This document shows positions 38,746 through 59,215 of a DNA stretch of 64,000 nucleotides, piece by piece. Position numbers and translations under genes: made by a program. This DNA comes from a virus. The notes beneath the pieces are model-generated. The model was not told the origin of the DNA. It worked only from the letters and a program-made list of their open reading frames with translations, and searched no databases. Location of the stretch: the IMG/VR virus record IMGVR_UViG_3300033182_000157, positions 16,036 to 80,035 of that record; one strand, given 5' to 3'. Each line of letters starts with the position of its first letter. Within the stretch, counting starts at the first letter, position 1.

Positions 38746-39646
38746 TATTGATATTATATATCTAAGTTATGACGAGCCTAACGCTGATGAAAATTACGCC
38801 GACTTGCTTACAAAAGCACCGTGGGCCAAACGTGTACACGGAGTAGAAGGTAGCGATGCTGCTCATAAAATGTGTGCTGAAATGTCAGAAACAGATCGCT
38901 TTATTACTGTTGACGGTGACAACAAAATTTATGCTGACTTTTTAGAGCAAGAGATAGATTTTAATCAACACAAATACATAAGTGAAAGCGTGTTAAGTTG
39001 GTGCGGTTATAATGTAGTCAATGGACTGATGTATGGCAATGGCGGGTTAAAATGCTGGCCTAAAGATGTTGTTTTAAATATGAAAACACACGAAGCAAGT
39101 GATCCAAACGATTTAGCAGCTCAAGTAGAATTCTGTTGGAACTTAGATTATGTACAAATGAGTAGTTGCTATTCAAAAGTATATAACAATGCCAGTCCTT
39201 GGCAAGCCTGGAGAGCAGGTTTTCGTGAAGGTGTTAAAATGAGTTTAGATCAAGGTAAGAGGTTTAATAGTCTTACATTTAGGGAAGAAGTATATTGGCA
39301 AAACTTACATAGGTTACTTATTTGGTGTAACGTAGGAAGCGATGTTGAAAACGGACTATGGGCAATGTATGGCGCAAGACAAGGCGCATACATGACAAAT
39401 CTTACAGACTGGGATTATGTAAATGTACGTGATTTCAAATACTTGAACAATCTCTGGAAAACTCAAGTAAGTAAAGAAGTAAATGAAGATAATTTAATGG
39501 ACAAAATAAACGATGTAGGAAACGCTCTACAACGTGATTTACATATTGCTGTAACTTCAGTGTTTACTCCAACACAAAGTAAACAGTTTAAGGAAAGTTA
39601 TACTAATACAGATAGGACAGGACAAGGATTTATTGATGTTGAATAA
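38732..39646 (+). CDS. Single-unit glycosyltransferase-like protein
   Basis: A 304-aa protein equivalent to one unit of the preceding gene: IIYLSYDEPNADENY, KRVHGVEG, then DGD at residues 61-63 in the place of the DxD motif, and later LIWCNVGSDVENGLWAMYGA with RQ. The shared order of motifs with both halves of the upstream gene shows repeated duplication. It overlaps that gene by 14 bases and the following radical SAM gene by 11 bases, placing all of them in one operon from the promoter at 34876. Substrate unknown. Confidence 0.55.
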   Translation: MKIRDIDIIYLSYDEPNADENYADLLTKAPWAKRVHGVEGSDAAHKMCAEMSETDRFITVDGDNKIYADFLEQEIDFNQHKYISESVLSWCGYNVVNGLMYGNGGLKCWPKDVVLNMKTHEASDPNDLAAQVEFCWNLDYVQMSSCYSKVYNNASPWQAWRAGFREGVKMSLDQGKRFNSLTFREEVYWQNLHRLLIWCNVGSDVENGLWAMYGARQGAYMTNLTDWDYVNVRDFKYLNNLWKTQVSKEVNEDNLMDKINDVGNALQRDLHIAVTSVFTPTQSKQFKESYTNTDRTGQGFIDVE

Positions 39647-41018
39647 ACTTGTAAAACGTTTAGGTAGACGATTAAAAATTGTAAAAGATCCTATTGATCG
39701 TATGTCAGAAGTAAAAGCAATTACTGATCAAATATCTCCTACCTTTTGTTTAGCAAAATGGCATCATACTACTATCTATTTACAAACTGGAGAAACACAC
39801 AGTTGTTATCATCCAGCACCGCATACAATACCGTTAGAAGAAATAGAAACAAATCCAAGTGCGTTACATAATACAAAAGAAAAGAAACAACAACGTTACC
39901 AAATGCTAAAAGGCGAAAAGCCTAGCGGTTGTCAGTATTGTTGGAACATTGAATGTATGGGCAAGGATTATATTAGTGACAGGCACGAACGTAATAGCGG
40001 AATCTATACAAAGCAACGACTACAAGAAATAGAAACAAACGATTGGAACTTTAATGTAAATCCTGAATACATTGAAATTTCGTTTGGCAATGAATGTAAT
40101 TTACGTTGCGGATACTGTCACCCTAAAGCAAGTAGTAGTTACTATAAAGAAATAGAACATTATGGCCCTTATAAAACTAAAAATCATACACAACACATAC
40201 GTAAATTAAACATTTATAAAAAGGAAGAAGAAAATCCTTATGTAGAAGCATGGTGGCGTTGGTGGCCTGAAGTAAGTAAAACTCTAAATATTTTGCGTAT
40301 TACCGGAGGGGAGCCACTACTACAACAAAGTACTTGGCGTCTGCTTGACGATTTAGAAACTAACCCTTTACCTAATCTTGAACTAAACATTAATTCTAAC
40401 TTAGCAGTAAAAAATGTACTAGTAAGACGCCTTGCTGATAAAGTAAATCATTTAGTTAAAAACGGAAAAATAAAACGTTTTAAACTTTTTACAAGTTTAG
40501 ATACTTGGGGCAAACCTGCCGAATATATTAGAACAGGTTTAGACTTACAGGTGTGGGAACAAAACTTTGATACGTGGATGACAAAAACAGATCAGCCTAT
40601 AACATTTATGGTAACGTTTAATATACTTTCAGTTACTACATTTGATCAATTGTTAGCAAAATTTTTAGAATGGCGTAAAAAATATCAAACAGGAAAAAGA
40701 CGTATTAGATTTGACACTCCGTATTTAAAAGAGCCTATTCAATATGATATGAATATACTTCCTAAAAGTTTTATGTCTTATATGGAACAACATTTACAGT
40801 TTATAAAAGACAATCAAGATGAAAATGACGTAAACAAATTTTCAAATCTTGAGTATGAAAAGTTCCGTCGTGTTGTAGATTATATGCGTACTACAGAATA
40901 TAGTACAGAGCGTTTAGAAGAAGGGCGTAAAGATTTTGTTATATGGTTTACTGAACACGATAAACGTAGAGGTACAAATTTTGCTGAAACGTTCCCAAAA
41001 CTAAAAAACGTTTTTTGA
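39636..41018 (+). CDS. Radical SAM enzyme with N-terminal twitch-like Cys segment
   Basis: ATG at 39636 is preferred to the TTG at 39633. The 460-aa protein has an N-terminal Cys-containing part (C38, C57, C99, C102) like the twitch domain that holds an auxiliary iron-sulfur cluster, then the radical SAM CxxxCxxC site (C154, C158, C161; NECNLRCGYC) and an SAM-contacting ITGGEPLL motif near residue 222. The C-terminus ends with RGTNFAETFPKLKNVF, a tail resembling that of the twitch radical SAM gene at 54243 (TNFKETFPEL). It would cleave SAM to start radical chemistry on an unknown substrate. It is the last gene of the first island operon and overlaps a convergent gene by 18 bases. Confidence 0.8.
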   Translation: MLNKLVKRLGRRLKIVKDPIDRMSEVKAITDQISPTFCLAKWHHTTIYLQTGETHSCYHPAPHTIPLEEIETNPSALHNTKEKKQQRYQMLKGEKPSGCQYCWNIECMGKDYISDRHERNSGIYTKQRLQEIETNDWNFNVNPEYIEISFGNECNLRCGYCHPKASSSYYKEIEHYGPYKTKNHTQHIRKLNIYKKEEENPYVEAWWRWWPEVSKTLNILRITGGEPLLQQSTWRLLDDLETNPLPNLELNINSNLAVKNVLVRRLADKVNHLVKNGKIKRFKLFTSLDTWGKPAEYIRTGLDLQVWEQNFDTWMTKTDQPITFMVTFNILSVTTFDQLLAKFLEWRKKYQTGKRRIRFDTPYLKEPIQYDMNILPKSFMSYMEQHLQFIKDNQDENDVNKFSNLEYEKFRRVVDYMRTTEYSTERLEEGRKDFVIWFTEHDKRRGTNFAETFPKLKNVF

Positions 41019-42233
41019 TTGGTAATGTTCGTCTACTTGAAGGTTGCCATTAGTATATCTTATAGAGTTTTCAACAAGTAATAAAAACTCATCTACACTG
41101 TACTGATTGTAGTCTGCTCTTTTATAGTTATAATTTAAGACATCGACATTTCCTAAAGACCAATCTATTTGTTGTGTACGATTCATTTTAGAAAGCAGTT
41201 TACATACTCTTTTAAGTTCTTTTTCTAAAGCAGCCCATCGTTTTGCTGGATCTCTTATAAAATCAAATTCATAATCAAACCAGTCAGTATAAAGTTTATA
41301 TCCTAATCTTGCTAGGTTATAGTTTTGCCCCATTTGCCCCCAAATAATTATAGGTACTTTTTGGGCAACAACTTTAAAAGTTTTTTCACTGTAGAACAGA
41401 CTAGTTTCATTCCAGTCACTTTGCATTGTTTCGCAGGTTAGGTTAAACAATACTTGTTGATTTAGTTTTATACCTAAGTCGTTTGCCCAGTTAGTTTCAA
41501 AGTCTTCAGTGTCGACAATCATGGGAGTATTTTTTGACATAAACTTATCCATAGAGTCAGTATGAAAATAATTGCTACGATATTCACCGGGACGTACTTT
41601 GTCGTGACTAATTAATCCGTGTTTTGCTAATCCGCTATCGTGTAAACGCCAAACAGCATAACTCCTCCAAAAACGTTTACGTCTATTTAAGTTAAGAAAG
41701 TATTTTCCGTTATAATTTTCTAACAATGATATATGTCTTGGCTTAGATTTGCCAGCATCTATGTACATTGCTTTTTGAAAACTGTCCCAATGCATCATTT
41801 CTATAACATTTATTTTATTTTTCTTTTCGGTTAAACCATGCCAATATACATCAAATATTCCTTTTTCTCGTAAATTTCCGCTAATAAAAAATATTCCAGC
41901 AGGGTCAATATTATGCTTTACCGCGCTATTATATAATGCTTGTGAAACAGCATGATGTGGAACAGCCCATCCTTCATGAGAACCGTCTAGTACAAATACA
42001 CATTGTTTGTTGCGTAACAGATCTAAAAAGTTAGTCTTGATGCTACCTAAGATATCACTATCAAGATATATTCCTTGTTTATATGAATACTGACACATCA
42101 TTACACAGACCTTGTCAAATTCTCTATTCTTCATAAACGACAAGTGTTTACGATAATGATGAAAACTACCAGGCGGGTCTATCATCTCTCTAACATAAGT
42201 TGTGTCATTTAGCCATTCAGAAAAATATATCAT
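41001..42233 (-). CDS. Glycosyltransferase-like protein, minus strand
   Basis: The start is taken as ATG at 42233 rather than the TTG three bases upstream. The 410-aa protein contains LFYSEKTFKVVAQKVPIIIW followed by GQMGQNYNLARLGY. This SEK(T)...K..P...G block matches the nucleotide-sugar-binding C-terminal half of fucosyltransferase-like and related phage glycosyltransferases. The middle is rich in Arg and aromatics (YFLNLNRRKRFWRSY). Located on the opposite strand, it overlaps the 3' end of the radical SAM gene by 18 bases and is divergent from the dehydrogenase gene. Assignment to a specific GT family is uncertain. Confidence 0.55.
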   Translation of the reverse strand: MIYFSEWLNDTTYVREMIDPPGSFHHYRKHLSFMKNREFDKVCVMMCQYSYKQGIYLDSDILGSIKTNFLDLLRNKQCVFVLDGSHEGWAVPHHAVSQALYNSAVKHNIDPAGIFFISGNLREKGIFDVYWHGLTEKKNKINVIEMMHWDSFQKAMYIDAGKSKPRHISLLENYNGKYFLNLNRRKRFWRSYAVWRLHDSGLAKHGLISHDKVRPGEYRSNYFHTDSMDKFMSKNTPMIVDTEDFETNWANDLGIKLNQQVLFNLTCETMQSDWNETSLFYSEKTFKVVAQKVPIIIWGQMGQNYNLARLGYKLYTDWFDYEFDFIRDPAKRWAALEKELKRVCKLLSKMNRTQQIDWSLGNVDVLNYNYKRADYNQYSVDEFLLLVENSIRYTNGNLQVDEHYQSKNVF

Positions 42234-42234
42234 C

Positions 42235-42243
42235 AATAAATAC
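42235..42243 (+). promoter_or_regulatory. Putative late promoter AATAAATAC upstream of nucleotide-sugar dehydrogenase
   Basis: AATAAATAC in the divergent gap, ending 35 bases before the dehydrogenase ATG at 42279. It is identical to the copies before gp6, the 203-aa gene and the third fibre. It is the only perfect copy noted within the enzyme island and suggests that this gene is made late. Confidence 0.5.
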
Positions 42244-42278: not shown

Positions 42279-43505
42279 ATGAAGATTGGATTTATTGGCG
42301 TAGGCAAACTAGGTATGCCTTGTGCGGAAGAAATTGTACACAAAGGACACACTGTTGATGGGTACGATGTAGCAGAAGTACAAAGCGACTATGTAAACGT
42401 AGTAAATTCAATTGAAGAAGCAGTATCAAATAAGGAAATTGTGTTTATTGCTGTACCTACTCCGCACGATCCATTATATGATGGCAATGCACCAACAGCA
42501 CATTTACCTACAAAAGATTTCTCATACGATATTGTAAAAGAAGTTTTGTTTGAAGCAAACAAGCATATGACTGAAGATCAGTTATTAGTTCTTATTTCAA
42601 CAGTACTTCCAGGAACAACTCGTCAACAGTTTGTACAGTTAGTTACTAATACACGTTTTGTATATAACCCTTACTTGATTGCTATGGGCAGTGTAGCATG
42701 GGACATGGTAAATCCAGAGATGGTAATGATTGGCACAGAAGATGGACGCGAAACAGGTGATGCTAAACAACTTGTTGAATTTTATAAAACTGTAATGGAA
42801 AACGATCCGCGTTATGTTGTTGGAACTTGGGACGAGTGCGAGTGTATTAAAGTATTTTATAACACATTTATTTCTACTAAAATTAGTTTAGTGAATATGA
42901 TACAAGACGTAGCAGAAAAGCAAGGTAACATCAATGTTGATGTTGTTACTAAAGCACTTGCTGAAAGCACAATGCGTATTATGGGCAAGCAGTATATGAC
43001 TGCTGGAATGGGCGATGGCGGTGCGTGTCATCCACGTGATAATATTGCTCTACGTTATATGGCAGAAGAACTTGATTTAGGATATGATTTGTTTGATGCT
43101 ATTATGAATGCTCGTGAAATACAAGCAGAAAATTTAGCAAAAGAATTAGTAAAACACTCTAAAGAAAATAAGATGCCTATCTATATTCACGGTAAAGCAT
43201 ACAAACCAAAAGTATCGTACTTAGACGGTAGTTATAGTTTGTTAGTAGGACACTATTGCGAAGCAATGGGATACCCTGTAAAATATATTGATCCTTATAC
43301 TGGAGATGATTTTGAACCTAGCAAGCCGGGTGTATTTTTGTTAGCACATTCCGCAGAAGTAACGTATGAATATACAGGTAAACAAAGTACAGACGAATTA
43401 TATTGTGTTATACCAATGGGAAGTATTGTAATTGACCCTTGGCGTAAGTTTCAATCTCAAGCAAGTAAAGTAATACACTACGGAAATACCCGGAATAGAG
43501 CTTGA
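42279..43505 (+). CDS. UDP-glucose/GDP-mannose 6-dehydrogenase-like enzyme
   Basis: A 408-aa member of the nucleotide-sugar dehydrogenase family, which oxidises the sugar C6 alcohol to a carboxylate with two NAD+. The N-terminal Rossmann motif is GFIGVGKLGMP (residues 4-14). Residue 250 is the catalytic cysteine in GGACHPRDNIA, and YNTFISTKISLVNM carries the conserved lysine. IDPYTGDDFEP near the C-terminus fits the NAD- and substrate-binding domain. Product would be a uronic acid nucleotide sugar for the neighbouring transferases. Substrate specificity cannot be read from the sequence. Confidence 0.85.
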   Translation: MKIGFIGVGKLGMPCAEEIVHKGHTVDGYDVAEVQSDYVNVVNSIEEAVSNKEIVFIAVPTPHDPLYDGNAPTAHLPTKDFSYDIVKEVLFEANKHMTEDQLLVLISTVLPGTTRQQFVQLVTNTRFVYNPYLIAMGSVAWDMVNPEMVMIGTEDGRETGDAKQLVEFYKTVMENDPRYVVGTWDECECIKVFYNTFISTKISLVNMIQDVAEKQGNINVDVVTKALAESTMRIMGKQYMTAGMGDGGACHPRDNIALRYMAEELDLGYDLFDAIMNAREIQAENLAKELVKHSKENKMPIYIHGKAYKPKVSYLDGSYSLLVGHYCEAMGYPVKYIDPYTGDDFEPSKPGVFLLAHSAEVTYEYTGKQSTDELYCVIPMGSIVIDPWRKFQSQASKVIHYGNTRNRA

Positions 43506-43530
43506 CATTTCTAATAAGAGATGTTACTAT
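43502..43530 (+). promoter_or_regulatory. Sigma70-like promoter placed on top of a start codon
   Basis: TTGACA at 43502-43507 overlaps the stop of the dehydrogenase gene; a 17-base spacer leads to TACTAT at 43525-43530. A start point six to seven bases further falls at about 43537, exactly the ATG of the next gene, with no ribosome site between. This predicts a leaderless transcript unless read-through from upstream supplies a leader. Confidence 0.6.
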
Positions 43531-43536: not shown

Positions 43537-44592
43537 ATGCAAAATGTCAACGATATTAAAACAGTTCATATTGAGCTAACTGATAAATGCCAAGCACAAT
43601 GTCCAATGTGTGCTAGAAACTATCACGGTGGCAAACCTCGTCCTTTTATTCGCAACGGCGATATTAGCATTGAACAATTTAAAGAATGGTTCCCTAAAGA
43701 CTTCCTAGCACAACTATCTAATTTTTATAGTTGTGGCAATTACGGCGATCCTGCTTTTGCTAGAGATTGTTTAGAAATCTATTCGTATGTACGAGAATGT
43801 AACCCGCATACAAGACTAGCAATACATACTAACGGTGGTATGCGAAATCCCGAATGGTGGACTAAACTAGCACAACACAACATTGAAGTTGTGTTTGCTG
43901 TAGACGGATTCAAAGGTAAACACGAGTTATATCGTAAGAACACAAATTTTGATAAAGTTATTGAAAATCTAACAGCATTTATAAACGCAGGAGGCACTGC
44001 AAAAGTTGATAGTCTTGTTTTCGCACACAATGAACGCGATGTAGAAGAACTAGAACAATATCTATTAGGGTTAGGTGTAGAAAGTGTAAATTTTGTTAGC
44101 ACAACAAGATTTTATGAAATGACAGAATTTGAAGTACATGATAATAATGGAAATGTACAATATAAAATACATCCTGCTCAGACGCCTAAGTATAAACGAA
44201 CACCAAACAACACGTTAAACGCATTAGTGGATAAAGAAGTACGAGATGCTGCTCTTGAAGCAGCAGAGATATCTCCTATATGCGAGAGCGAACAAGGTAT
44301 ATATGTTGATCCTTACGGAAATATATCACCGTGCTGTTGGATAGGTGGCGACTATTTAGAAGAACCAGTTAAAGAAACACTGCCGATACATTATCTTAGA
44401 AACATAAGTGTAGAAAATACTCAACAAATAATGAACGAAATAGGTGTTCCTAAATGCCAAGATGGTGTACTTGGAACTAATACAGTCTTGTTTGAAGAAC
44501 TTAACAAGTACTGGCAAGGTCCTGATAAATGTATGACTTGTGTGAAGGTATGCTCTAAAGCATTATATAATAGTAGAACGAAAAATGACTGA
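43537..44592 (+). CDS. Radical SAM/SPASM-type enzyme
   Basis: A 351-aa protein with the radical SAM site at C18, C22 and C25 (TDKCQAQCPMCARNY). SCGNYGDP stands where GGEP usually occurs. The C-terminal third has further cysteines, including CESEQGIYVDPYGNISPCCW and CMTCVKVC, a SPASM-type set for auxiliary iron-sulfur clusters. SPASM enzymes typically modify peptides, cofactors or sugars. No ribosome site precedes the ATG, which coincides with the predicted start of transcription. The 3' end overlaps the next radical SAM gene by 8 bases. Confidence 0.82.
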   Translation: MQNVNDIKTVHIELTDKCQAQCPMCARNYHGGKPRPFIRNGDISIEQFKEWFPKDFLAQLSNFYSCGNYGDPAFARDCLEIYSYVRECNPHTRLAIHTNGGMRNPEWWTKLAQHNIEVVFAVDGFKGKHELYRKNTNFDKVIENLTAFINAGGTAKVDSLVFAHNERDVEELEQYLLGLGVESVNFVSTTRFYEMTEFEVHDNNGNVQYKIHPAQTPKYKRTPNNTLNALVDKEVRDAALEAAEISPICESEQGIYVDPYGNISPCCWIGGDYLEEPVKETLPIHYLRNISVENTQQIMNEIGVPKCQDGVLGTNTVLFEELNKYWQGPDKCMTCVKVCSKALYNSRTKND

Positions 44593-45562
44593 CATTCCAT
44601 GGGATAATATTACACGATTTGGCCAAAAGACCCTCCTAAAGAGCCATCTTTTTACAGTCTCTTGGATCACCACTAGATATTGTAATTATGAGTGCTCTTA
44701 TTGCTGGCCTCACGCAAGATCTAGTACCCCAGATACAAACCCACTAGAATTGTACTTAAACACGATGGATAGTATCAAGGCACAGGCAAGAAACAATGGT
44801 TTTACAGATTTCCACTTCAGTTTTAGCGGAGGAGAACCTACAGTAAATAAGCACTTCTTGCCCTTAGTAGAACACTACTGTAACGACGAAGCACCAGAAT
44901 ATCAAAGCATACACATGACTACAAATCTGTCCCCAGGCAGCAAGTGGTGGAATAAGTACTTAGAAGCAACACAAACTCTACAGCGCAGAAGCGTAACAGC
45001 AAGTTTCCACGACGAGTTTGCTAAAGAACAAGAGTTTGGAGATAAGTGCTTACAACTAATGAATGGAGGAGTATATGTTACAATCAATCAAGTTATGGTT
45101 CCAGAAAAGTTTGACGAGCTTTACGAACGCTTGGGAAGATTTGCCGCCAGAGGTATTAATGTCACTCTCAAACCACAGTCCAATCCTACCGCTACAGCAG
45201 TGGTTGAAGGCTACACAGAAGAACAAATCCGAATCATGCGAGAAGGATTCCCACAGCAGTGGCAAGGCGAATCAGTCGCACAAGTTGCACTCTACGACAA
45301 AGAAGGACAAGAGTACGAATTAGATCAAGCAGAACGTTTTAATGCGTTTGGATTCAATAAATTTGAAGGTTGGTATTGTAACGCAGGATATCAAGGTATT
45401 GTAATACGTGAGAATGAAGTTAAACGTAGTTACAGTTGCCACGAAGAACCATTAGGTACACTAGAAAACTTTAAGATATTCGATGGCCCTCGTAGATGTA
45501 TAACTCCAACTTGCGTTAGTTCGGCAGACTCAAAACTGCCAAAGGTAAAATATGAAGGTTGA
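44585..45562 (+). CDS. Radical SAM enzyme with locally high GC
   Basis: A 325-aa protein with C33, C37 and C40 in TRYCNYECSYCWPHA and an FSFSGGEPT motif. C-terminal cysteines (WYCNAGYQ, SCHEEP, CITPTC) suggest at least one auxiliary cluster. Base use is unusual: by hand count line 45241-45300 is 31/60 G+C and 45121-45240 is 57/120, while lines in nearby genes run at about 25%. The C-terminal third returns toward the local average. The gene may be a recent acquisition or a chimera. It sits between another radical SAM gene and a methyltransferase, overlapping both. Confidence 0.82.
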   Translation: MTDIPWDNITRFGQKTLLKSHLFTVSWITTRYCNYECSYCWPHARSSTPDTNPLELYLNTMDSIKAQARNNGFTDFHFSFSGGEPTVNKHFLPLVEHYCNDEAPEYQSIHMTTNLSPGSKWWNKYLEATQTLQRRSVTASFHDEFAKEQEFGDKCLQLMNGGVYVTINQVMVPEKFDELYERLGRFAARGINVTLKPQSNPTATAVVEGYTEEQIRIMREGFPQQWQGESVAQVALYDKEGQEYELDQAERFNAFGFNKFEGWYCNAGYQGIVIRENEVKRSYSCHEEPLGTLENFKIFDGPRRCITPTCVSSADSKLPKVKYEG

Positions 45563-46148
45563 ATTAGAAGATGTATTGTTTTGGATGGACGCTATTCGCA
45601 ATAGCGATGATCGTTATCGTACACTTGAAAGTTTCTGGAAAGGACAGATTCATAGTAAGCAATGGCTTATTGAACGCCTTGAAGAACACGCTCTACCAAG
45701 CAAAAATAATATAGAAATACACGGAGGTTGGAATGGAGTTCTTGCTAGTCTTATTTTTAATAGCAGCATTAATGTTGGACGAATCACAAGTGTAGATGTT
45801 GATCCTGTATGTAAAGAAATTGCTCATACAGTGAATAAAGCATATGAAATGCGGGGTATGTTTAAGGCTGTAACAGAAGATATGTGTACTCGTAATTACA
45901 AAGCGGATATTGTTATTAACACAAGTTGCGAGCATATTACTCAAGAACAGTACGAGCAATGGTTAAGCAATGTTCCCCAATTAGCAACTATTGTTTTACA
46001 AAGTAATAATTATTTTGCTTGTGAAGAACATATTAGATGTGTAGAAGATTTAGATGAGTTTGTAGAACAAAGTAACATACGTGTATTTTGGAAAGGAGTT
46101 TACGAAACTCCGACGTACAGTAGATTTATGATTATTGGAAAGAAGTAA
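45552..46148 (+). CDS. Class I SAM-dependent methyltransferase-like protein
   Basis: A 198-aa protein with a Rossmann-type methyltransferase pattern: a degenerate motif I (EIHGGWNGVLASLIF), the acidic strand-2 end (ITSVDVDPVC) that would hold the SAM ribose, and a motif IV-like DIVINTSCEHI. The glycine loop is less regular than usual, but spacing fits. Substrate unknown. It overlaps the upstream radical SAM gene by 11 bases, and its stop overlaps the downstream oxygenase start (TAATG), so it is part of the coupled operon that begins at 43537. Confidence 0.65.
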   Translation: MKVELEDVLFWMDAIRNSDDRYRTLESFWKGQIHSKQWLIERLEEHALPSKNNIEIHGGWNGVLASLIFNSSINVGRITSVDVDPVCKEIAHTVNKAYEMRGMFKAVTEDMCTRNYKADIVINTSCEHITQEQYEQWLSNVPQLATIVLQSNNYFACEEHIRCVEDLDEFVEQSNIRVFWKGVYETPTYSRFMIIGKK

Positions 46149-46807
46149 TGGAAGAGCGTGTAAACAAGTTGCTACAGATGTTTGTTGATGGTGAGTTAGG
46201 CTGGCTTGAACTTGATACTTCGTTTACACCTTATTATGAACCTACTGAACTAGAAGCAGTTGAACCTTATTATGTAGAACATCGTGAAGGGGAAAATCAC
46301 GAAGGTTGGGAAAGTTGTTGTATACACGGACTAGGTCCCAACAAAACACGTATTTGTTACGACTACGGATATGATAATGAAATAGAAGCACCGTACTACT
46401 GGACTGAAGTGGCAGAAGCAGCACCGAGAGCGGCACAGTTTTGGAAAGACTTCCCAGCAGAGCGATTTGCTCGTATGAGATTTATGAAATTAAAGCCAGG
46501 TGGAAACATAGGACTACACAATGACAGACCTAAACAATTTCCGCCTAGTTTAGTTGACTTTTTATTACCTATAAATGTAGCAATTACACATCCGGAAGAT
46601 TGTCGTATGTTTGTAGAAGGATACGGTTTTGTTCCGTGGGAGCCTGGAAAGGTATTTCTTGTGAACATAATGCAAAATCATATGGTAATTAACAATTCAG
46701 ATCAAGATAGAATTCATATGATTGCTCAAGTACATCCTGGCAATCGTAAAAAAGAATTTATGGACCTATTAATTAGAAGCGCAGTAAAAAATGGTTACGA
46801 AGTTTAA
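46148..46807 (+). CDS. Aspartyl/asparaginyl beta-hydroxylase-like 2OG oxygenase
   Basis: A 219-aa protein with a double-stranded beta-helix oxygenase signature: HND at residues 124-126 (MKLKPGGNIGLHNDRP) as the HxD iron ligands, H178 (NIMQNHMVINNS) as the distal ligand, and R188 (DQDRIHMIAQV) for 2-oxoglutarate. These positions fit the aspartyl/asparaginyl beta-hydroxylase group. Such enzymes hydroxylate amino acids or peptide side chains. Five more HxD...H oxygenases of this type lie further downstream. It overlaps the next gene by 17 bases. Confidence 0.78.
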   Translation: MEERVNKLLQMFVDGELGWLELDTSFTPYYEPTELEAVEPYYVEHREGENHEGWESCCIHGLGPNKTRICYDYGYDNEIEAPYYWTEVAEAAPRAAQFWKDFPAERFARMRFMKLKPGGNIGLHNDRPKQFPPSLVDFLLPINVAITHPEDCRMFVEGYGFVPWEPGKVFLVNIMQNHMVINNSDQDRIHMIAQVHPGNRKKEFMDLLIRSAVKNGYEV

Positions 46808-52375: not shown

Positions 52376-53264
52376 AGTAACGTCAAAGTGGCCGCACCAA
52401 GATAGTGTTAAAGTAGAATGGAACATAGGTAAACGTTGTAACTTAGACTGTGCGTATTGTCCTGCGGAAATACACGACAATCATAGTCCGCATCAGCACT
52501 ATTCCGCAATGTTTGATGTTATAGATCAGTTAACTGACATAGGTAAGCCTATTCGTTTAAGTTTTACTGGCGGCGAACCATGTATACACCCTGATATAGA
52601 AGACATCCTTGAATACGCACATCAAAAGTGTGATTGGATTAATGTGACTACAAACGGGTTACGCCCTGGTGCTTGGTACGCAGAGCAACCTGTATCGCAT
52701 TATGTGTTCAGTTTACATTTTGATAATGAACACTGGGAACGTGCTATGGATAATATTACTATGTTCGCACAACTAAATGAAGTAGAGCAAAACATACCGT
52801 TTATGATTAACGTTATGGCACACTATAATCACATGAAGGAAGTTAAACAAGCCGTAGCACGTTTTGAAGGACATAATATTAAGTATGTAATTAGACGTAT
52901 TCGATGGACTGAAAAGCATGACTGGTTTGACGATATGCGATACAATGAAAAAGATTTACAATGGATTTTAGATCAAGATGCTACTGTGCTTCCTAATTGT
53001 ATTGTTGACGATGAGATACAAATTCATGCCAATGATATTATTAAAAAGAACATGAATTGTTTTAAAGGGTGGAAGTGTTCAGCAGGTATAGAAAGTTTAA
53101 TGGTTAACTGGGACGGCGAAGTACATCGTGCTACTTGTCGTGTAGGCGGTAGTTTAGGAAATATTTACGAAGGTACATTTGAAGTTCCTGAAGAGTGGGT
53201 AACTTGTACACGAGATTGGTGTACTTGTGCTGCTGATATTCCGTTATCTAAATCTGCTTCGTAA
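52368..53264 (+). CDS. Radical SAM enzyme with C-terminal Cys cluster
   Basis: The ATG at 52368 (GGAG upstream) is preferred to a TTG at 52341. The 298-aa protein has C24, C28 and C31 in KRCNLDCAYC, an FTGGEPCIHPD motif, and C-terminal cysteines in WKCSAGIESLMVNWDGEVHR, then TCRVGG and CTRDWCTC, a twitch/SPASM-like set. It resembles the minus-strand gene that converges with it (FTGWKCNIGLDSVFINFDG there). The two share an arrangement and probably a common ancestor. The 3' ends overlap by 17 bases. Confidence 0.82.
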   Translation: MDRVTSKWPHQDSVKVEWNIGKRCNLDCAYCPAEIHDNHSPHQHYSAMFDVIDQLTDIGKPIRLSFTGGEPCIHPDIEDILEYAHQKCDWINVTTNGLRPGAWYAEQPVSHYVFSLHFDNEHWERAMDNITMFAQLNEVEQNIPFMINVMAHYNHMKEVKQAVARFEGHNIKYVIRRIRWTEKHDWFDDMRYNEKDLQWILDQDATVLPNCIVDDEIQIHANDIIKKNMNCFKGWKCSAGIESLMVNWDGEVHRATCRVGGSLGNIYEGTFEVPEEWVTCTRDWCTCAADIPLSKSAS

Positions 53265-54246
53265 TATGTGTTTCGGGACTACAAACACATAAGCATTTAC
53301 TACAAGTTGCTTGTTTTAAATCTATATTAAATTTAGTAGTAAAATCTTTATCTAGTATATTGTGAAAATAGTCTAATCCGTAGATGTATTCTCCACAAGC
53401 TCCTTGTATTGTTCCATCAAAGTTAATAAACACACTATCAAGACCAATATTACATTTCCAACCTGTAAAACTGTTTAAGTTTTTGTTAAGGTATGTTTGT
53501 GATCCTGCTCTAATCTTTTTACCATCATCAAATGTGCCAATGCTTTCTGTATAACGTATTTCGCCATTTTTTAACAAATGCCTATTTTTCCATAACCACG
53601 TTAATGAAGCCATTCTTTTAACGCCCCATTTCATATATGCTTTTTGTTCTTTAGTATAGTGTTGTTTGTTATCTTGTTCAATAACTTCAGCAACAGTTAT
53701 AAACCATTTGTGTTTGCTATTCTTTTTCATATATTCTACAGTAGCAACACAGTCGTCCCAACACGTTGAATCCATTAAAACTTTTACAGTTATCTTTTTA
53801 TTAAATTCAAACATTGTATCTGCAACAGCAATCGTATGATCGACATCTGCTTCTTTTACGTGATGTGTTAAATGTACGTTATCAATGTTTTCGCCGTGTT
53901 CTTCCCACCAACGTAAAGTACGTGATCCGTTAGTAACTAGAGAAATGTATATGTTATTGTTTTCTCTTATGCGAGAAACAAACTGATCTAAGTCTTTCCA
54001 AAGAGTAGGCTCACCACCGATAATTTGTAAGTGTGTTTTTTTCTTACCTAATCTTGTTTCGTAAGTTTTAATTAAGTGATTAAAGTTATTGACAATTAAG
54101 TCCATATCTTTAGGACTGCGAAACTCCCCGCTATTACTTCCTGGAAAACAATAACGACATTTAAAATTACAAACGTTATTAGGTAACCAACGTAAGTCTA
54201 AATGAGATGGATCTCTAGTAGATTCTATTTTTATAAGTTTACTCAT
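53248..54246 (-). CDS. Radical SAM enzyme with C-terminal Cys cluster, minus strand
   Basis: A 332-aa protein with C26, C30 and C33 (NVCNFKCRYC), an IIGGEPTLWKD motif and a C-terminal cysteine set (WKCNIGLDSV, GACGEY, CSKCLCVC) for an auxiliary cluster. It forms a two-gene minus-strand unit with the twitch radical SAM gene at 54243 through a 4-base ATGA overlap. It resembles the convergent + strand gene at 52368 in length and motif order, so the pair may have arisen by an inverted duplication followed by divergence. Confidence 0.82.
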   Translation of the reverse strand: MSKLIKIESTRDPSHLDLRWLPNNVCNFKCRYCFPGSNSGEFRSPKDMDLIVNNFNHLIKTYETRLGKKKTHLQIIGGEPTLWKDLDQFVSRIRENNNIYISLVTNGSRTLRWWEEHGENIDNVHLTHHVKEADVDHTIAVADTMFEFNKKITVKVLMDSTCWDDCVATVEYMKKNSKHKWFITVAEVIEQDNKQHYTKEQKAYMKWGVKRMASLTWLWKNRHLLKNGEIRYTESIGTFDDGKKIRAGSQTYLNKNLNSFTGWKCNIGLDSVFINFDGTIQGACGEYIYGLDYFHNILDKDFTTKFNIDLKQATCSKCLCVCSPETHITKQI

Positions 54247-55661
54247 AGTAAATGTGCCAGTTCTGGAAATGTTTCTTTAAAATTAGTATGTCTATGGTTG
54301 TCCATCTTATGGATATATTCTTTAAAATCAGGAAGCAAGTATGTATGATCTTCTGCATCCATCCAATCTAATATACTTTCCCAACGACTCCATCCGTAAG
54401 GATTAACTTTCCAAAACTCGTCATCTTGTGTATAGTTTCCCCAAAGCCAATCTTTAAGTTCTAAAAATAAACGTCTTACTTCTTCTTTATCTTCTTTAGG
54501 AAGAACACGTAAACTTAACCAAGTAGGAATCCAAAGTAAATGTACACTCATTAAACCACCGCCGTATGTGTGTCCTACAGCATTTTTGTCTAAATTAATT
54601 TTCTTAAAATTACTTTGTACTTTCCACTTAATAAAATCAGGAACGTGTTTGATGTTTAGTATCTGTACAGCAAGAGCAATACTAGCAGTAATGTTCTCTG
54701 GTGCTTGTTCAATTTTCCAAAGATTTTCTTCTACCTTCTTCCAATCTAACGGATAACGTATGTATTCTCCACGAGGGCCAATGCCATCTAAACTACAACC
54801 GTACTTAACTTTTTTGAAGTGTTTCCATATATCAATAATTTCTTCATCGACTAACAAACCGTTAGAGTTATAACGCACACTAATTTTATCAGCATATCCA
54901 CGTTTAATAATTTCTTCCAAGAACATCTTGTGTTCTTTAATCATTAAAGGTTCGCCACCAGCAAAGTATAGTTGTTTAATATTAGGAATCTGTTCATACA
55001 CTTCTTCCCAAAACTCTGGATTTTCGTGCCAAAAGTTATTAAACTCTTTACGGTCCCATGACATTTGCTTTTTAATAAGTTTACTTTCAAATGTAGGATA
55101 AATTATTTTATGATCTTTAACCCATTGACTACTATCGTGCGGACTACACATAATACACTTTAAATTACAAGTATGTCCTAAACGTAAATCAAAGTATTGT
55201 ATTTTATGAGGTACAGAACCGTCTTCTGCTGTTTCTGCAATTAGCTCTTGTATATCTATTTCTTCTTCGTAATACCAAGTGCCTGTTTCCCAAATACGTT
55301 TACTAACAATACCGCGTTCTTCTTCATCAAAACATTTTTTACAACTAGCAGGTATTTTACCTTCAAGCATTGTTTTACGAACACTTTTCATATAGTCATT
55401 ATTAAATGCTTCTTTAACTGAATCCTTACCAAAGTTAGCAGGTTTTCCGTCTTCCTTTTTAACAAGTCCAACTGTATAATCTCCGCTGTCTGCACCACTA
55501 GCATTAGCAACACAACAAATACGCATATCGCCGTTAGGGCGTGTTGCTAAATGTAGCCAAGGTAATACACAAAATGTACATGATCTTGATACATCTTCTA
55601 TTTGTTGTTGGTATTTTCCTACTTCGCTGTCGATCGGGTTATAAAAGTATTTTTTGGTCAT
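54243..55661 (-). CDS. Radical SAM enzyme with N-terminal twitch-like Cys segment, minus strand
   Basis: A 472-aa protein with twitch-type cysteines C28, C31, C49, C50, C107 and C110 (RSCTFCVLPW, MRICCVAN, CKKCFDEEERG), the radical SAM site C165, C169, C172 (GHTCNLKCIMC) and YFAGGEPLM. It has the fullest twitch-like segment of the four such genes. The C-terminus (HTNFKETFPELAHLL) resembles that of the gene at 39636. An AGAGGA ribosome site lies just upstream of the ATG at 55661, and a GGTAAATACC sequence further upstream may be its promoter. Confidence 0.83.
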   Translation of the reverse strand: MTKKYFYNPIDSEVGKYQQQIEDVSRSCTFCVLPWLHLATRPNGDMRICCVANASGADSGDYTVGLVKKEDGKPANFGKDSVKEAFNNDYMKSVRKTMLEGKIPASCKKCFDEEERGIVSKRIWETGTWYYEEEIDIQELIAETAEDGSVPHKIQYFDLRLGHTCNLKCIMCSPHDSSQWVKDHKIIYPTFESKLIKKQMSWDRKEFNNFWHENPEFWEEVYEQIPNIKQLYFAGGEPLMIKEHKMFLEEIIKRGYADKISVRYNSNGLLVDEEIIDIWKHFKKVKYGCSLDGIGPRGEYIRYPLDWKKVEENLWKIEQAPENITASIALAVQILNIKHVPDFIKWKVQSNFKKINLDKNAVGHTYGGGLMSVHLLWIPTWLSLRVLPKEDKEEVRRLFLELKDWLWGNYTQDDEFWKVNPYGWSRWESILDWMDAEDHTYLLPDFKEYIHKMDNHRHTNFKETFPELAHLL

Positions 55662-55674: not shown

Positions 55675-55683
55675 GTATTTACC
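55675..55683 (-). promoter_or_regulatory. Possible late-promoter-like motif upstream of minus-strand radical SAM pair
   Basis: On the minus strand the sequence GGTAAATAC lies 14 bases before the ATG at 55661 with AGAGGA between. It shares the core TAAATAC with the AATAAATAC motifs but lacks the leading AA, so it is a weaker match. Position in the divergent gap supports it. Confidence 0.3.
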
Positions 55684-55723
55684 AGGTTGTATTAACTACG
55701 CATTTTAATGTGGTAAATATTTG

Positions 55724-56395
55724 ATGCTAGTAAAAACTGACATAACGCACAACGCAAACGATGTACTAGAGTTAGTAAAACACTTTCAACCAGGCAAAAA
55801 TGTTCTAAATGTTCCAACAGGACGCTTCTTTTATGACCCGTGGGTCACTATGCCAGCGTATAAAGATACAGCAATAGATGTACTTTTGAAAAAAATACCT
55901 AATGTAGGCGAAGCACGAATAAACATTCTTGCTCCTGGCGAAAGTTATATGGCTCATGCTGACATTGATGATAGACATCACTTGAATTTAGATGGTGAAT
56001 ATTCCTTTTTGATTGACTTAGACAATAACATTATGTACAAACTAGAGTGCGACAATACAGTTTATTGTATGGATACGTCAAGAATACACACTGCTAGTAA
56101 TTATGGATATAAAAATAGGATACAATTAGTTGTTAGAAAACTTTTAGTTGATTCTACACTTATTGATCCTATACATTTGAAAATTACAGCAGTTGAAGCA
56201 CCTTATAATCTTCGTTATTTGTTTGATAATACGTTTAGTATAACACTAAACAAACTAAACAAAAAGGGTGTATTAGCATCGTTTGAAAAAGTATCTGACG
56301 TGTCTATATCTTTTGCGGTTGAAAAGGAGTTTTTATCAGAAATTGATAAATGTGTAGTTAGTTGCGGATTCAAAGTAAAGGTAGAATACTTATGA
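55724..56395 (+). CDS. AspH-like 2OG oxygenase
   Basis: The ATG at 55724 is preferred to a TTG three bases earlier. The 223-aa protein has HAD at residues 78-80 (PGESYMAHADIDDRHH) as HxD ligands, H122 (DTSRIHTASNYG) and R132 (NRIQLVV) for 2-oxoglutarate, the same spacing class as the gene at 46148. The C-terminal 80 residues form an extra domain not seen in the other oxygenases here. It heads the + strand operon running to 61163 and overlaps the next start by 4 bases (ATGA). Confidence 0.72.
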   Translation: MLVKTDITHNANDVLELVKHFQPGKNVLNVPTGRFFYDPWVTMPAYKDTAIDVLLKKIPNVGEARINILAPGESYMAHADIDDRHHLNLDGEYSFLIDLDNNIMYKLECDNTVYCMDTSRIHTASNYGYKNRIQLVVRKLLVDSTLIDPIHLKITAVEAPYNLRYLFDNTFSITLNKLNKKGVLASFEKVSDVSISFAVEKEFLSEIDKCVVSCGFKVKVEYL

Positions 56396-57036
56396 AGTGG
56401 GATTATTTTTATAAATTTGACGAAGGTCACGACGGTGCTCCTGCGAATGTATTATACGAGCCATTTATTTCTGAAGATAAAACTTTATTCTTAATGCATT
56501 TTAATAACGACAACGATTATTTTGAGAATTTACATTACTCAGAAGAAATGGTAGATTTTTATTTTCGTAGAGAAGCAGGGTGGTTAGAAAAATTTGCTGA
56601 TTGTAATTTTACTCCTGAGATTGTTGACATTGATTATTATGAACGCAAGATTCTTTATAAATGGTATGATAAAAATTTAAACAGAGGATTGTTTGGAAAC
56701 GAATTTCAACTTCCAGATAATTGGCAACAACAAGTTAAAGATATTATTTCCAAGTTTGATGAACACGGTGTTTTTAAACTAAACTTATATCCGCATACGT
56801 TTTATTTTGATCAAGATGAAAATCTTCGTGTAAGCGATATGTATGCGTGTATTGATAAAACAGATTATATGATAGAAGATTATCTTATTAAACCTGTGCT
56901 AGATCCTACTGGCGGAATCAGTAGTGACAGGTTTACTATGTTTACCGATAACGGAATGGTAGATTTAAAGAAAGTATATGATTTAACTATGAGTATTAAC
57001 TATGGTGAATGGCCGGGAGATTTTTTAAATGGCTGA
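56392..57036 (+). CDS. Kinase-fold-like protein (paralog 1)
   Basis: The ATG at 56392 overlaps the upstream stop; longer starts are not supported. The 214-aa protein has a layout like small-molecule kinases: an N-terminal lobe (EPFISEDKTLFLMHF), then a region FKLNLYPHTFYFDQDENLRV followed by SDMYACID that lines up with the catalytic and metal-binding loops (H..HP.N..., DxG). Several catalytic residues are not standard. A second protein with an equivalent YSMHPSSYFIVDGKLKSINY block lies at 61974. This is an inference from layout only. Confidence 0.45.
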   Translation: MKWDYFYKFDEGHDGAPANVLYEPFISEDKTLFLMHFNNDNDYFENLHYSEEMVDFYFRREAGWLEKFADCNFTPEIVDIDYYERKILYKWYDKNLNRGLFGNEFQLPDNWQQQVKDIISKFDEHGVFKLNLYPHTFYFDQDENLRVSDMYACIDKTDYMIEDYLIKPVLDPTGGISSDRFTMFTDNGMVDLKKVYDLTMSINYGEWPGDFLNG

Positions 57037-57574
57037 GTTTATTGGTATATGCGATACAATCGATTGGAGTGCTTTATGTACCCAATTAGCAGAACAAGAA
57101 GCAGCATATATTGGACCACGACATGATGTAGGACACGATGTTCCGGGAGTTGAAGAAGTTGCCGGACAACTACGTGACGCTGGTTATCAGATGAAACATG
57201 AAGGCGGAAATGCTAGTTGGGATATGTACTTAGCAGGTGTAAACTTTGATGAAAGCATAGTACAGCAATTTATGGATTTTGTTGGAATGGACAGTTATAT
57301 TAATTGTTGGATAAGTCGTGTTAAACCTGGAGATGTTGCTCCATGGCATTGGGACATAACAGATGACGAAGCAACGTTAAACGCAGGTAAGCCTCTTGTT
57401 CGTTACCATTGCCATATAAGTCCACCTGAACCAGGACACGTTCTAATGGTTGAAGACCAATGTTTGTATATGCAAGAGCAAGGAGCAGTTTGGAAGTGGC
57501 CTGATCGTAAAAGTTGGCACGCCGGTGCTAACGCAGGATTAGTTCCAAAGTACCTGTTTAATATATGGGGTTAA
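57029..57574 (+). CDS. AspH-like 2OG oxygenase (tandem paralog 1)
   Basis: A 181-aa protein with HWD at residues 107-109 (GDVAPWHWDITDDEA) and H164 (KSWHAGANAG) as iron ligands, and K174 where Arg/Lys for 2-oxoglutarate is expected. The middle block RYHCHISPPEPGHVLMVEDQ is shared with the next gene. The small size suits a single beta-helix domain. It overlaps the kinase-like gene by 8 bases. Amino-acid or peptide hydroxylation is the family's usual chemistry. Confidence 0.7.
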   Translation: MAEFIGICDTIDWSALCTQLAEQEAAYIGPRHDVGHDVPGVEEVAGQLRDAGYQMKHEGGNASWDMYLAGVNFDESIVQQFMDFVGMDSYINCWISRVKPGDVAPWHWDITDDEATLNAGKPLVRYHCHISPPEPGHVLMVEDQCLYMQEQGAVWKWPDRKSWHAGANAGLVPKYLFNIWG

Positions 57575-57575
57575 T

Positions 57576-58136
57576 ATGAAAAAATATATAGGAAATTGTT
57601 CAGATGTTATTGATTGGAATGAAGTTCTAGAACAATTATATAACTCGCAACCCGAGAAACACGGATATAATAATCCATACGGTATAGATCACGATTACCA
57701 CGATATTGATCCTCTGCATCTAAAAGGTATTGAAACATATAAAGATAGACAAGAAGCGGTAGAATTTTTTACCTATGTAAACGGTAAAGAATATGATATG
57801 AGTGTCAATGATAAATTTGCAGAATGGTTAGGCTGTAAACCTTTCTTGTCGTGGATTAGTAGAATAGATCCTGGACGTTGTGTTCCGCCACATATTGATT
57901 ACGATGATGTTATTATGCTTGAAGAAGCAAATATATCAGAAGATAAATGGTTACGGTATCACTGCCATATTTCAGAACCTGAGATTGGTGCTGTTCTTAT
58001 GTTAGATGATGGTTCTAGTTACCATATGGAAGAACAAGGTTCGGTATTTCAATGGCCGGAAGTACGGAGTGTTCACAGTGGTGTAAATAGTGGCTGGAAA
58101 CCTAAATTCCTTTTTAACTTTATAGGTATTAAATGA
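57576..58136 (+). CDS. AspH-like 2OG oxygenase (tandem paralog 2)
   Basis: A 186-aa protein following its paralog after one base. Ligands are HID at 106-108 (CVPPHIDYDD) and H167 (RSVHSGVNSGWKPKFLFN), with a Lys nearby for 2-oxoglutarate. The block WLRYHCHISEPEIGAVLMLD is aligned with the upstream gene. Both begin alike (IGICDTIDW and IGNCSDVIDW), confirming a tandem duplication. The stop overlaps the next start (ATGA). Confidence 0.7.
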   Translation: MKKYIGNCSDVIDWNEVLEQLYNSQPEKHGYNNPYGIDHDYHDIDPLHLKGIETYKDRQEAVEFFTYVNGKEYDMSVNDKFAEWLGCKPFLSWISRIDPGRCVPPHIDYDDVIMLEEANISEDKWLRYHCHISEPEIGAVLMLDDGSSYHMEEQGSVFQWPEVRSVHSGVNSGWKPKFLFNFIGIK

Positions 58137-59215
58137 GTTATTGTAATGCTCCTTGGCGCAGAATTTTTATAGATGCTAGTGGAAAGAAATATCCTTGCTG
58201 CCAGTTTGATCGTCGAGGCGAATACAATTTAGATGAAATAAAACAAAAAATGTTAAACAGAGAGCCAGTTAAGCAATGTGAACGATGCGATGTTCAATCG
58301 CAGTCTGGCGAAATATCATTGAGAGAACAATATAATAAACTTTATGGGTATCCATTAAGACCTACTATTCGTGATGTAGAAATAGGGGTTGACAACGTGT
58401 GTAATTTACAATGTCTAATTTGTTCTAGTAGGTCTAGTCATAAATGGTTTGATGTAGAGAATAAATTATTTGGCGATACTGTTAGTCCAACAAAGTATCA
58501 ACAGCACGAAGAATACAAAACTATTGATTGGAAAAATGTAAGAAGTTTACATTTATATGGGGGCGAGCCTTTTTATAGTCCTAATGTAGAAACAATGTTA
58601 GATTATATTTCTAATAAAATAGATTGGAAAAATTTTAAACTAAGTGGGTCTACTAATTGTACACGTATGCCTAAAGACTCTTTGTTAGAAAAAATAAAAT
58701 CGTGTAAAGAGTTTCGTTTTAATCTAAGTATAGATGGTTATGGAAAGATAAACGACTATTCTAGAAAAGGTAGTAATTGGAATGACGTATTAGAAAATAT
58801 GCGTAAATGGCATACATTAGCAGAAAAACATGACAATATTCTTATAGAAGTTTTCTCTACGGTATCAATCTATACGGCTAATATGTACGACAAGTTAGAA
58901 GAGTTTATAAGAGAAAACTTTCCACACTTTAAAATAGTGTTTCAGCATTTGCAAGTGCCTGAATGGCTGTGTATTTCAAATACACCTTTAGAATATAAAC
59001 AAATGGTTAAACAATATACAACTAATGAAACTATTTTAAAAGTTTTAGACGTAGAAGGTCCTGACTTATTCGATCAGTTTGTATATTTTACAAATAAAGT
59101 TAACCCTGACGGGCTAGAGGAAGCAAATCCTAATTTGTATAAGTTTATGAAAAATTATGAATTACACGATTGTAAGGATGCTATAGTACAAAAGATAAGA
59201 GAATACAAAGTATGA
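58133..59215 (+). CDS. Radical SAM enzyme with short twitch-like Cys segment
   Basis: A 360-aa protein with N-terminal cysteines C4, C22, C23, C49 and C52 (SYCNAPWRR, YPCCQFD, CERCDVQSQSG), the radical SAM site C90, C94, C97 (DNVCNLQCLICSS) and a LYGGEPFYSP motif. It is the shortest of the four twitch-type genes here, with a compact N-terminus. It is coupled by 4-base ATGA overlaps to the oxygenase upstream and the SDR-like gene downstream, linking the three chemistries in one operon. Confidence 0.82.
   Translation: MSYCNAPWRRIFIDASGKKYPCCQFDRRGEYNLDEIKQKMLNREPVKQCERCDVQSQSGEISLREQYNKLYGYPLRPTIRDVEIGVDNVCNLQCLICSSRSSHKWFDVENKLFGDTVSPTKYQQHEEYKTIDWKNVRSLHLYGGEPFYSPNVETMLDYISNKIDWKNFKLSGSTNCTRMPKDSLLEKIKSCKEFRFNLSIDGYGKINDYSRKGSNWNDVLENMRKWHTLAEKHDNILIEVFSTVSIYTANMYDKLEEFIRENFPHFKIVFQHLQVPEWLCISNTPLEYKQMVKQYTTNETILKVLDVEGPDLFDQFVYFTNKVNPDGLEEANPNLYKFMKNYELHDCKDAIVQKIREYKV

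Follow-up and report, generated by a model that had tools for sequence, protein, structure and literature searches.

Clusters of radical S-adenosylmethionine (radical SAM) genes have been noticed in phages since 2010, without explanation. The Campylobacter phages CP220 and CPt10 possess 11 and 12 such genes, with an exchangeable five-gene module (PMC2853527), and the 183-kb T4-like ocean genome TARA_ERS488813_N000010 harbours 12 (PMC5332604). The host-recognition clusters of pelagimyophages hold radical SAM cassettes together with glycosyltransferases (PMC7029224), and a cluster of cyanophage S-SSM6a with 2-oxoglutarate (2OG) oxygenases has been interpreted as serving surface decoration or a secondary metabolite (PMC7824862). 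In the excerpts considered, PMC2853527, PMC5332604 and PMC7029224 give no product for these clusters. A further case is the IMG/VR record IMGVR_UViG_3300033182_000157, a T4-like phage of 80,035 bases, of which bases 16036-80035 were analysed as a stretch of 64,000 nucleotides (the window): nine radical SAM genes lie within 20 kb, eight of them in an island core at 43537-63207. An earlier note on this DNA had suggested a pathway with no recognisable precedent in the window; going by the same excerpts, dense phage radical SAM clusters were already in print in 2010, 2017 and 2020. In the excerpts covered from the open-access literature, a scope that makes absence weak evidence, the island is not described as one shared system and no product is given. 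The comparisons below show a core that changes place in the genome and passes between related large T4-like phages; it possibly encodes a late-expressed tailoring pathway.

The Campylobacter module resembles the locus in its T4-related myophage carrier, its five clustered radical SAM genes among 11-12 and its replacement en masse, as described in the excerpt (PMC2853527). A PF04055 search likewise counts 11 radical SAM genes in CP220; within the CP220 stretch examined, its radical SAM proteins reach 64-105 bits against island families, with one scoring 20, and an amidinotransferase matches island family f28 (107 bits). The CP220 module is, however, smaller; no radical SAM protein with an N-terminal twitch domain (N-twitch) is over the cut-off, and the oxygenases, the kinase-fold family KinF, the methyltransferase, the PP-loop and the pyridoxal-phosphate (PLP) enzymes of the island are unmatched in that stretch. 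The window, for its part, has the radical SAM cluster, but f28 is absent from its island. Pelagimyophage host-recognition clusters, which are placed between VrlC and gp14 with tail fibres, resemble the locus as a variable island at the tail-fibre region, with glycosyltransferases and radical SAM cassettes (PMC7029224, excerpt); this tail-fibre adjacency is found in the window's type of record and not in the 270-kb relative G006. Pelagibacter phage Mosig EXVC030M encodes distant homologues of the methyltransferase, PLP, two radical SAM, oxyD, f15 and short-chain dehydrogenase/reductase (SDR) families, but has only 2 PF04055 matches and is annotated with an ArnB-like aminotransferase, a carbamoyltransferase and nitroreductases. 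TARA_ERS488813_N000010, likened here by description, is T4-like with a similar number of radical SAM genes, which its authors read as Fe-S metabolism (PMC5332604, excerpt). The S-SSM6a cluster similarly combines sugar- and amino-acid-modifying enzymes, several 2OG oxygenases included, with a proposed role in capsule decoration or secondary metabolism; it differs in having a halogenase and carbamoyltransferases, and the excerpt does not mention radical SAM enzymes (PMC7824862).

Radical SAM genes of the window

The record carries a gp23-like capsid protein, a gp20-like portal, an SbcC-like subunit and a baseplate wedge, the gp numbers being our presumptive assignments. In the window, tail genes extend to 34866 and are followed by a glycosyltransferase-type run (35260-39646), an N-twitch radical SAM gene (39633), an unknown gene (41001), a sugar-nucleotide dehydrogenase gene (42279) and then the core. 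A genome-level PF04055 search of the whole record returns nine matches, eight over the cut-off and all inside the 20 kb: exactly the nine genes that the earlier note had listed, two of which start here at 39633 and 52341 instead of 39636 and 52368. Per protein, all nine match at E≤6.8e-4 and seven exceed the curated cut-off of 29.5 bits, 39633 (20.3 bits) and 49633 (27.2 bits) staying below it. The CX3CX2C motif is present in nine of the 46 window proteins of at least 100 residues, whereas 300 shuffles of the residues yield 0.09 such proteins on average and never more than 2. The count of eight GGEP-type motifs or variants given before is fair: seven are exact and 43537 shows a GDP-type variant, the motif being absent from 49633.

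The proposed subtypes are borne out by domain and subfamily models and by family alignments. Four of the nine pass NF033640, the model for N-terminal twitch radical SAM proteins (cut-off 170): 39633 (323.7 bits), 51110 (334.6), 54243 on the minus strand (405.6) and 58133 (186.8). In their alignment, C31, C49, C107 and C110 are invariant in 28 rows, and the N-terminal part resembles BtrN (profile, 4.5e-7), an aminocyclitol enzyme; we count this likeness in favour of a tailoring pathway. Four others, 43537, 44585, 52341 and 53248 (minus strand), belong to families with conserved C-terminal cysteines (C-Cys), although PF13186 (SPASM) matches none of the four at E≤0.1. The ninth, 49633, is of the B12 type, with PF02310 at 39.4 bits (cut-off 32.1) beside a PF04055 score just under threshold. 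Apart from NF033640, none of the NCBIfam cut-offs is passed by the nine proteins; their cores touch cytosylglucuronate decarboxylase, MoaA, NifB, viperin, tetraether synthase and sulfatase-maturase, none of them closely. The oxygenase, PLP and PP-loop neighbours reported among these genes are real. The one radical SAM gene outside the core, 39633, closes the tail-linked glycosyltransferase block.

Recurrence, relocation and exchange

A scan with 54243 found 229 viral stretches encoding relatives, of which 80 were kept; scans with 53248 and 49633 found 41 and 30. From the records behind 150 loci found via radical SAM queries, 48 whole environmental viral records, mostly longer ones, were picked by hand, with near-duplicates among them as judged by match scores (G022/G023/G025, G032/G033 and G010/G011). 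At least five PF04055 matches are found in 41 of the 48 and at least nine in 22, with up to 15 per record; because of this selection the set is biased by design, and 41 of 48 is no frequency.

Family profiles, built from loci that the window's own proteins had retrieved, served to annotate fifteen records. The profile, adjacency, promoter and tree work draws on the first 60 kb of G006, on 40-100 kb of G010 and on 40-120 kb of G036; G023 was left out as a duplicate from the counts over 12 and 14 records, and G040 and G026 from the adjacency count over 12. N-twitch and C-Cys radical SAM proteins are present in all 15 records; the 43537 family, KinF and oxyA in 13; the PP-loop, oxyC and SDR families in 12; the methyltransferase, oxyB and GNAT in 11; the B12-type radical SAM protein in 10; the PLP family and f22 in 9. 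The main cluster of G040 and G026 consists of a six-gene radical SAM array only. Gene order is also conserved: 15 strand-aware neighbour pairs recur in at least four of the 12 records, whereas shuffling the order 500 times gives 2.0 such pairs on average and 6 at most. One typical arrangement sets an N-twitch and a C-Cys gene facing a C-Cys and an N-twitch gene.

The position of the core varies. It comes after tail and glycosyltransferase genes in the window, G010, G020, G021, G022 and G023, the last two being near-duplicates. The structural array of G006 is collinear with that of the window: it starts with gp23 at 171.5 kb and runs to glycosyltransferases at 112-115 kb, again followed by a relative of 39633 (41% identity) at 110.4-111.8 kb. 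The G006 core, by contrast, occupies 10.9-32.7 kb, some 78 kb from this block on the linear record. This makes the core separable and places 39633 with the tail block. The structural proteins of the window are closer to those of G021 (gp23 87%, gp20 84%, gp6 71%) than to those of G006 (82, 70 and 44%), whereas the core proteins 54243/51110 are 63/62% identical in G021 versus 73/72% in G006, and up to 76% in G001. In the N-twitch tree, 51110 and 54243 each gather into a 12-row clade to which every complete island contributes one row (100/100). The window copies group with those of G006, G005 and G001 (plus G024 for 51110) at 98/96 and 100/100, apart from a G010/G020/G021 clade; the tree has a long-branch warning elsewhere, and these two clades have short branches. 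Since the core-gene trees disagree with structural similarity and the G006 core lies elsewhere, the comparison shows that the core relocates and is exchanged.

The partners of this exchange appear to be related phages. An island present in several unrelated backbones was considered and dropped, as complete G006 has homologues of 23 of the 32 proteins preceding the window's radical SAM run, gp23 (82%) and gp20 (70%) among them. Non-island open reading frames (ORFs) are held in common with G006, at mean identities of 57-63%, by G005 (45 of 64), G001 (34 of 50), G024 (32 of 48) and G036 (26 of 68), and G015 shares 35 of 47 with G036; these five thus resemble fragments of G006-like genomes. G032, G040 and G026, with fewer ORFs in common, are not grouped with them. 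On this evidence exchange covers related large T4-like phages, and transfer between unrelated lineages is not supported by the data. To note, a single ORF of 4511 residues (9053-22588) lies between the baseplate and tail-fibre genes of the window, and at the same position in G010 and G020-G023.

A cellular origin was rejected: the nearest of 24 prokaryote loci are a likely misbinned contig and a Bdellovibrio metagenome-assembled genome (MAG) at 31%. A contig of 3537 bases in a Thermoplasmata MAG (L152) contains only island-type radical SAM genes, 59% identical, and is probably a misbinned phage piece. In a Bdellovibrio MAG (L153, 8974-12239), two N-twitch genes and one C-Cys gene are found near glycosyltransferase-like genes, and Vibrio phage K566 (L251, 11884-18626) has four N-twitch genes close together, one annotated only as hypothetical.

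Promoters and enzymes of the island

The heptamer ATAAATA, which we take to be the core of the T4 late promoter, occurs four times in the window against 37 expected, always on the plus strand and just upstream of 5580, 22610, 31277 and 42279. The islands of 14 records contain 73 sites, against a mean of 281 and a minimum of 80 for 20 permuted control motifs; 36 of the 73 (49%) lie 8-60 bases upstream of an ORF start, as compared to 4.8% on average and 11.3% at most for the controls. Outside islands the proportion is 135 of 241 (controls 7.2%, maximum 25.9%). The island sites upstream of ORFs number 7 of 9 in G000, G010, G020 and G021 together and 14 of 19 in G024, G005 and G001. Sigma70-type sites upstream of ORFs amount to 87 of 191 outside islands (60 permuted controls: mean 2.75, maximum 26) and to 3 of 18 within them (controls: mean 0.63, maximum 3). 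One of these three is the window's own, before 43537; another good match stands at 34876, before the glycosyltransferases. Of the two promoter types examined, the T4-type late one thus dominates in islands, and from these statistics we infer that islands in general appear to be late-expressed, and that the one in the window may have an early start as well. Across the window and 15 records ATAAATA is under-represented, with much of the remainder at gene starts, a late-promoter signature. An inverted repeat, TATAGTA/TACTATA (34894-34912), lies in the gap after the tail fibres and overlaps the sigma70-like promoter there.

The rarity of early-type promoters in islands speaks against generic boosters of host metabolism or Fe-S auxiliary metabolic genes, as proposed, in the excerpts, by the authors of PMC2853527 and PMC5332604. 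So does the failure of the radical SAM proteins to pass any NCBIfam cut-off but NF033640, and so does the single prokaryote-genome scan, which gave 24 relatives, few of them full-length. We hold such a role to be very improbable.

Besides radical SAM proteins, the core encodes several 2OG-type oxygenases, two kinase-fold proteins, a methyltransferase, PLP enzymes, a QueC-like PP-loop protein, an SDR and a GNAT protein. Pfam names 42279 as a dehydrogenase and 46148 as an Asp/Asn hydroxylase, with matches below threshold for 48938, 55721 and 59212; in PHROGs, nine of ten other proteins of the run have no match at E≤0.01, the PP-loop protein being weakly QueC-like. HxD...H residues are invariant in the alignments of three further families (55721, 57029/57576 and 61141). 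The oxyA profile (57029/57576) matches the β-hydroxylase 7v4f (7.9e-4). A model of oxyC (61141; predicted local distance difference test (pLDDT) 89.9) retrieves mostly 2OG oxygenases among the 50 Foldseek matches listed (best E 9.7e-5, TM about 0.3), and this fold assignment is reasonable, though not close. Profile searches of the PDB gave no match for the oxyC family at E≤1, none for the PLP family at 0.01, and weak matches only for the PP-loop family. The SxSKG lysine motif is common to 48094 and 59645. Among ten extra families from relatives, five have Pfam matches: three are clear, namely to a class-III aminotransferase, TauD and a GDSL lipase, and two fall below cut-off.

Both the oxyA profile and the oxyC model reach 7v4f, a β-hydroxylase of a nucleoside antibiotic pathway, and the radical SAM profiles touch BtrN and cytosylglucuronate decarboxylase. 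The island might hence make a free small molecule, such as an antibiotic, a cofactor or a metabolite akin to a nucleoside or aminosugar, that is set free when the cell lyses or serves inside it during infection. Family f28, found in 4 of 15 records and matching the CP220 amidinotransferase, and the possible location of the core far from tail genes are compatible with this, and the comparable cyanophage cluster has been read partly so (PMC7824862, excerpt). These similarities are nevertheless at the superfamily level, and no self-resistance or export gene is recognised in the window's island, which leaves a free metabolite a serious but somewhat unlikely candidate.

The model of 61974 (pLDDT 92.2) adopts a protein-kinase fold (Foldseek 7.5e-7; VIA-align Z 12.3, root-mean-square deviation 3.5 over 181 residues). 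The KinF catalytic loop reads K-x-[S/T/N]-x-[H/Y]-P in 20 of 20 aligned sequences; if its Asp is placed by the HRD motif, this residue appears replaced, which suggests an atypical or pseudo-kinase. Both KinF proteins of the island (56362-57036 and 61974-62660) are possible pseudokinases.

Kinases, radical SAM enzymes with SPASM/twitch domains, hydroxylases, GNAT proteins and methyltransferases are common protein modifiers. With a kinase fold, Asp/Asn- and Pro-hydroxylase-like oxygenases and the other classes all present, and with late promoters, the island could tailor virion or host proteins post-translationally, or make a ribosomally synthesised and post-translationally modified peptide (RiPP). 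Also in favour, the C-terminal 115-131 residues of the tail-fibre protein 31277 match giant proteins encoded 6-21 kb from the radical SAM cluster (G001, G005, G024, G040; 33-41%). A separate precursor gene would, however, find no place in 34931-63207, where no gap exceeds 59 bases and 26 of 31 junctions overlap or abut, and PqqD is matched in 0 of 17 records; protein modification is accordingly judged unlikely. A RiPP cluster in particular does not lead, with no precursor gene in the run and no RiPP recognition element of the PqqD type in 17 records, a precursor elsewhere in the genome being possible. The giant proteins (L176, L187-L188, L191, L236-L237) are of about 2.2-2.6 thousand residues, and their C-terminal end matches that of 31277. 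S74 tail fibres were dismissed as a common island partner, PF13884 being present in only 5 of 40 records.

The PP-loop protein 48938 has an SGGADS loop and invariant Cys, as in QueC. This, and a QueD-type PTPS in 9 of 17 records, would suit nucleobase hypermodification of phage DNA or tRNA; yet PTPS is lacking in G000 (an incomplete record) and in its four close relatives searched, G010, G020, G021 and G022, several records being fragments, no C5 DNA methylase occurs in 17 records, several likewise fragments, and the promoters are of the late type. This chemistry is highly unlikely. Deazaguanine (QueD with QueC) and cytosine hypermodification were set aside, their anchor genes missing from the window's type of record. 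Island-carrying records with PTPS include G001, G005, G006, G024, G032, G036 and G040.

Table 1. Features of the window from the tail genes to the end of the island. Glycosyltransferase and GNAT names are our presumed labels, judged by eye.
Feature	Position	Strand	Basis or remark
T4-type late promoter core ATAAATA	31243..31249	+	upstream of tail gene 31277
Sigma70-like promoter, 11/12	34876..34904	+	gap before glycosyltransferase run; consensus match only
Glycosyltransferase-like, tail-linked block	35260..36120	+	by eye, no Pfam match; collinear in G006
NDP-sugar transferase PF03407, tail-linked block	36107..36883	+	Pfam; collinear in G006
Glycosyltransferase-like (GT37417 family), tail-linked block	37417..38745	+	by eye; family n=69
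Glycosyltransferase-like (GT37417 family), tail-linked block	38732..39646	+	family membership
Radical SAM, N-twitch, end of tail-linked block	39633..41018	+	NF033640; G006 relative 41%
Unknown protein	41001..42236	-	no Pfam match; relatives in G021, G026
T4-type late promoter core ATAAATA	42236..42242	+	before gene 42279
UDP-glucose/GDP-mannose dehydrogenase (accessory)	42279..43505	+	PF00984, PF03721
Sigma70-like promoter, 10/12, extended -10	43502..43530	+	before radical SAM 43537
Radical SAM, C-Cys (core)	43537..44592	+	PF04055 42.8 bits; conserved Cys
Radical SAM, C-Cys (core)	44585..45562	+	PF04055; conserved Cys
Class I methyltransferase-like (core)	45552..46148	+	alignment motifs; Mosig homologue annotated putative methyltransferase
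Asp/Asn β-hydroxylase-type oxygenase oxyD	46148..46807	+	PF05118 43.5 bits
Island family f22, function unknown	46791..48128	+	often beside oxyD
PLP aminotransferase-like, SxSKG	48094..48954	+	label from motif; often adjoins PP-loop gene
QueC-like PP-loop protein, conserved Cys (core)	48938..49636	+	PF06508 20.9 bits, under cut-off 22
B12-binding radical SAM (accessory)	49633..51120	+	PF02310 and PF04055
Radical SAM, N-twitch (core orthogroup)	51110..52375	+	NF033640; one per complete island
Radical SAM, C-Cys (core)	52341..53264	+	PF04055; conserved Cys
Radical SAM, C-Cys	53248..54246	-	PF04055; conserved Cys
Radical SAM, N-twitch (core orthogroup)	54243..55661	-	NF033640; one per complete island
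Oxygenase-type oxyB, HxD...H motif (core)	55721..56395	+	alignment; sub-threshold Pfam hint
Kinase-fold family KinF	56362..57036	+	family alignment/profile
Oxygenase-type oxyA	57029..57574	+	HxD...H invariant; profile reaches 7v4f
Oxygenase-type oxyA	57576..58136	+	HxD...H invariant; profile reaches 7v4f
Radical SAM, N-twitch (accessory)	58133..59215	+	NF033640 186.8 bits
Short SDR / RmlD-like	59212..59694	+	weak, 18 bits vs cut-off 27
PLP aminotransferase-like	59645..60589	+	SxSKG motif alignment
Oxygenase-like oxyE	60582..61163	+	by eye; no Pfam match
Oxygenase-type oxyC (core)	61141..61947	-	model pLDDT 89.9; Foldseek mostly 2OG oxygenases
KinF kinase-fold protein, catalytic-loop Asp apparently replaced	61974..62660	+	model pLDDT 92.2; Z 12.3
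GNAT-like acetyltransferase	62653..63207	+	by eye; family in 33 loci

A candidate surface-decoration pathway

The reading we prefer, tentatively, is a late-expressed tailoring pathway leading to an amino-acid- or sugar-derived decoration of the virion or of the host surface. The eight radical SAM genes of the core are taken as steps of one phage-borne biosynthetic island; related T4-like phages carry it at different genome positions and exchange it, and T4-type late promoters, which predominate in it, probably switch it on. The enzyme set (auxiliary-cluster radical SAM proteins, Fe(II)/2OG-type oxygenases, a PLP enzyme, a PP-loop ligase, a methyltransferase, a GNAT protein and an SDR) would suit tailoring: going by these families, a building block resembling an amino acid or a sugar probably undergoes oxidation, amination, methylation and acylation. 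Its product would probably be placed on tail fibres or the host envelope, altering adsorption or excluding rival phages, and the separate tail-linked glycosyltransferase block with its one N-twitch radical SAM protein may attach or complete it. The phage-encoded biosynthetic or modification pathway suggested in the earlier note is well supported by the conserved gene content and order, the relocation and exchange, the invariant catalytic motifs and the late promoters; its membership is to be amended, as 39633 belongs to the tail block.

Several observations weigh against a decoration pathway. In nine capsid-selected records, searched out of 80 loci and some of them fragments, radical SAM counts are 2, 1, 0, 0, 3, 0, 0, 0 and 0; none reaches five, and the island is therefore dispensable or accessory there. 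The highest single adjacency count, 8, was equalled at least once by shuffles. As the G006 core is not beside tail genes, the tail adjacency seen in the window is not general. ATAAATA sites upstream of ORFs number only 3 of 10 in the island of G022 and 6 of 22 in that of G032, with none in G040 or G026, and the two sigma70-like sites at gaps of the window imply that part may be early. Pfam annotation of the window's island recognises neither an NDP-sugar nucleotidyltransferase nor an exporter. It is conceivable, but somewhat unlikely, that a relocating, virus-centred pathway of five or more conserved radical steps and at least three oxygenase families, under late promoters, makes a novel class of virion or cell-surface decoration.

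The shared gene set and order, the relocation, the exchange and the late promoters unite scattered sightings into one testable system, of which cultured distant relatives exist, namely Mosig on SAR11 and Vibrio phage K566. Such a system would bring new radical chemistry to light, and perhaps also a new means by which large environmental phages alter surfaces.

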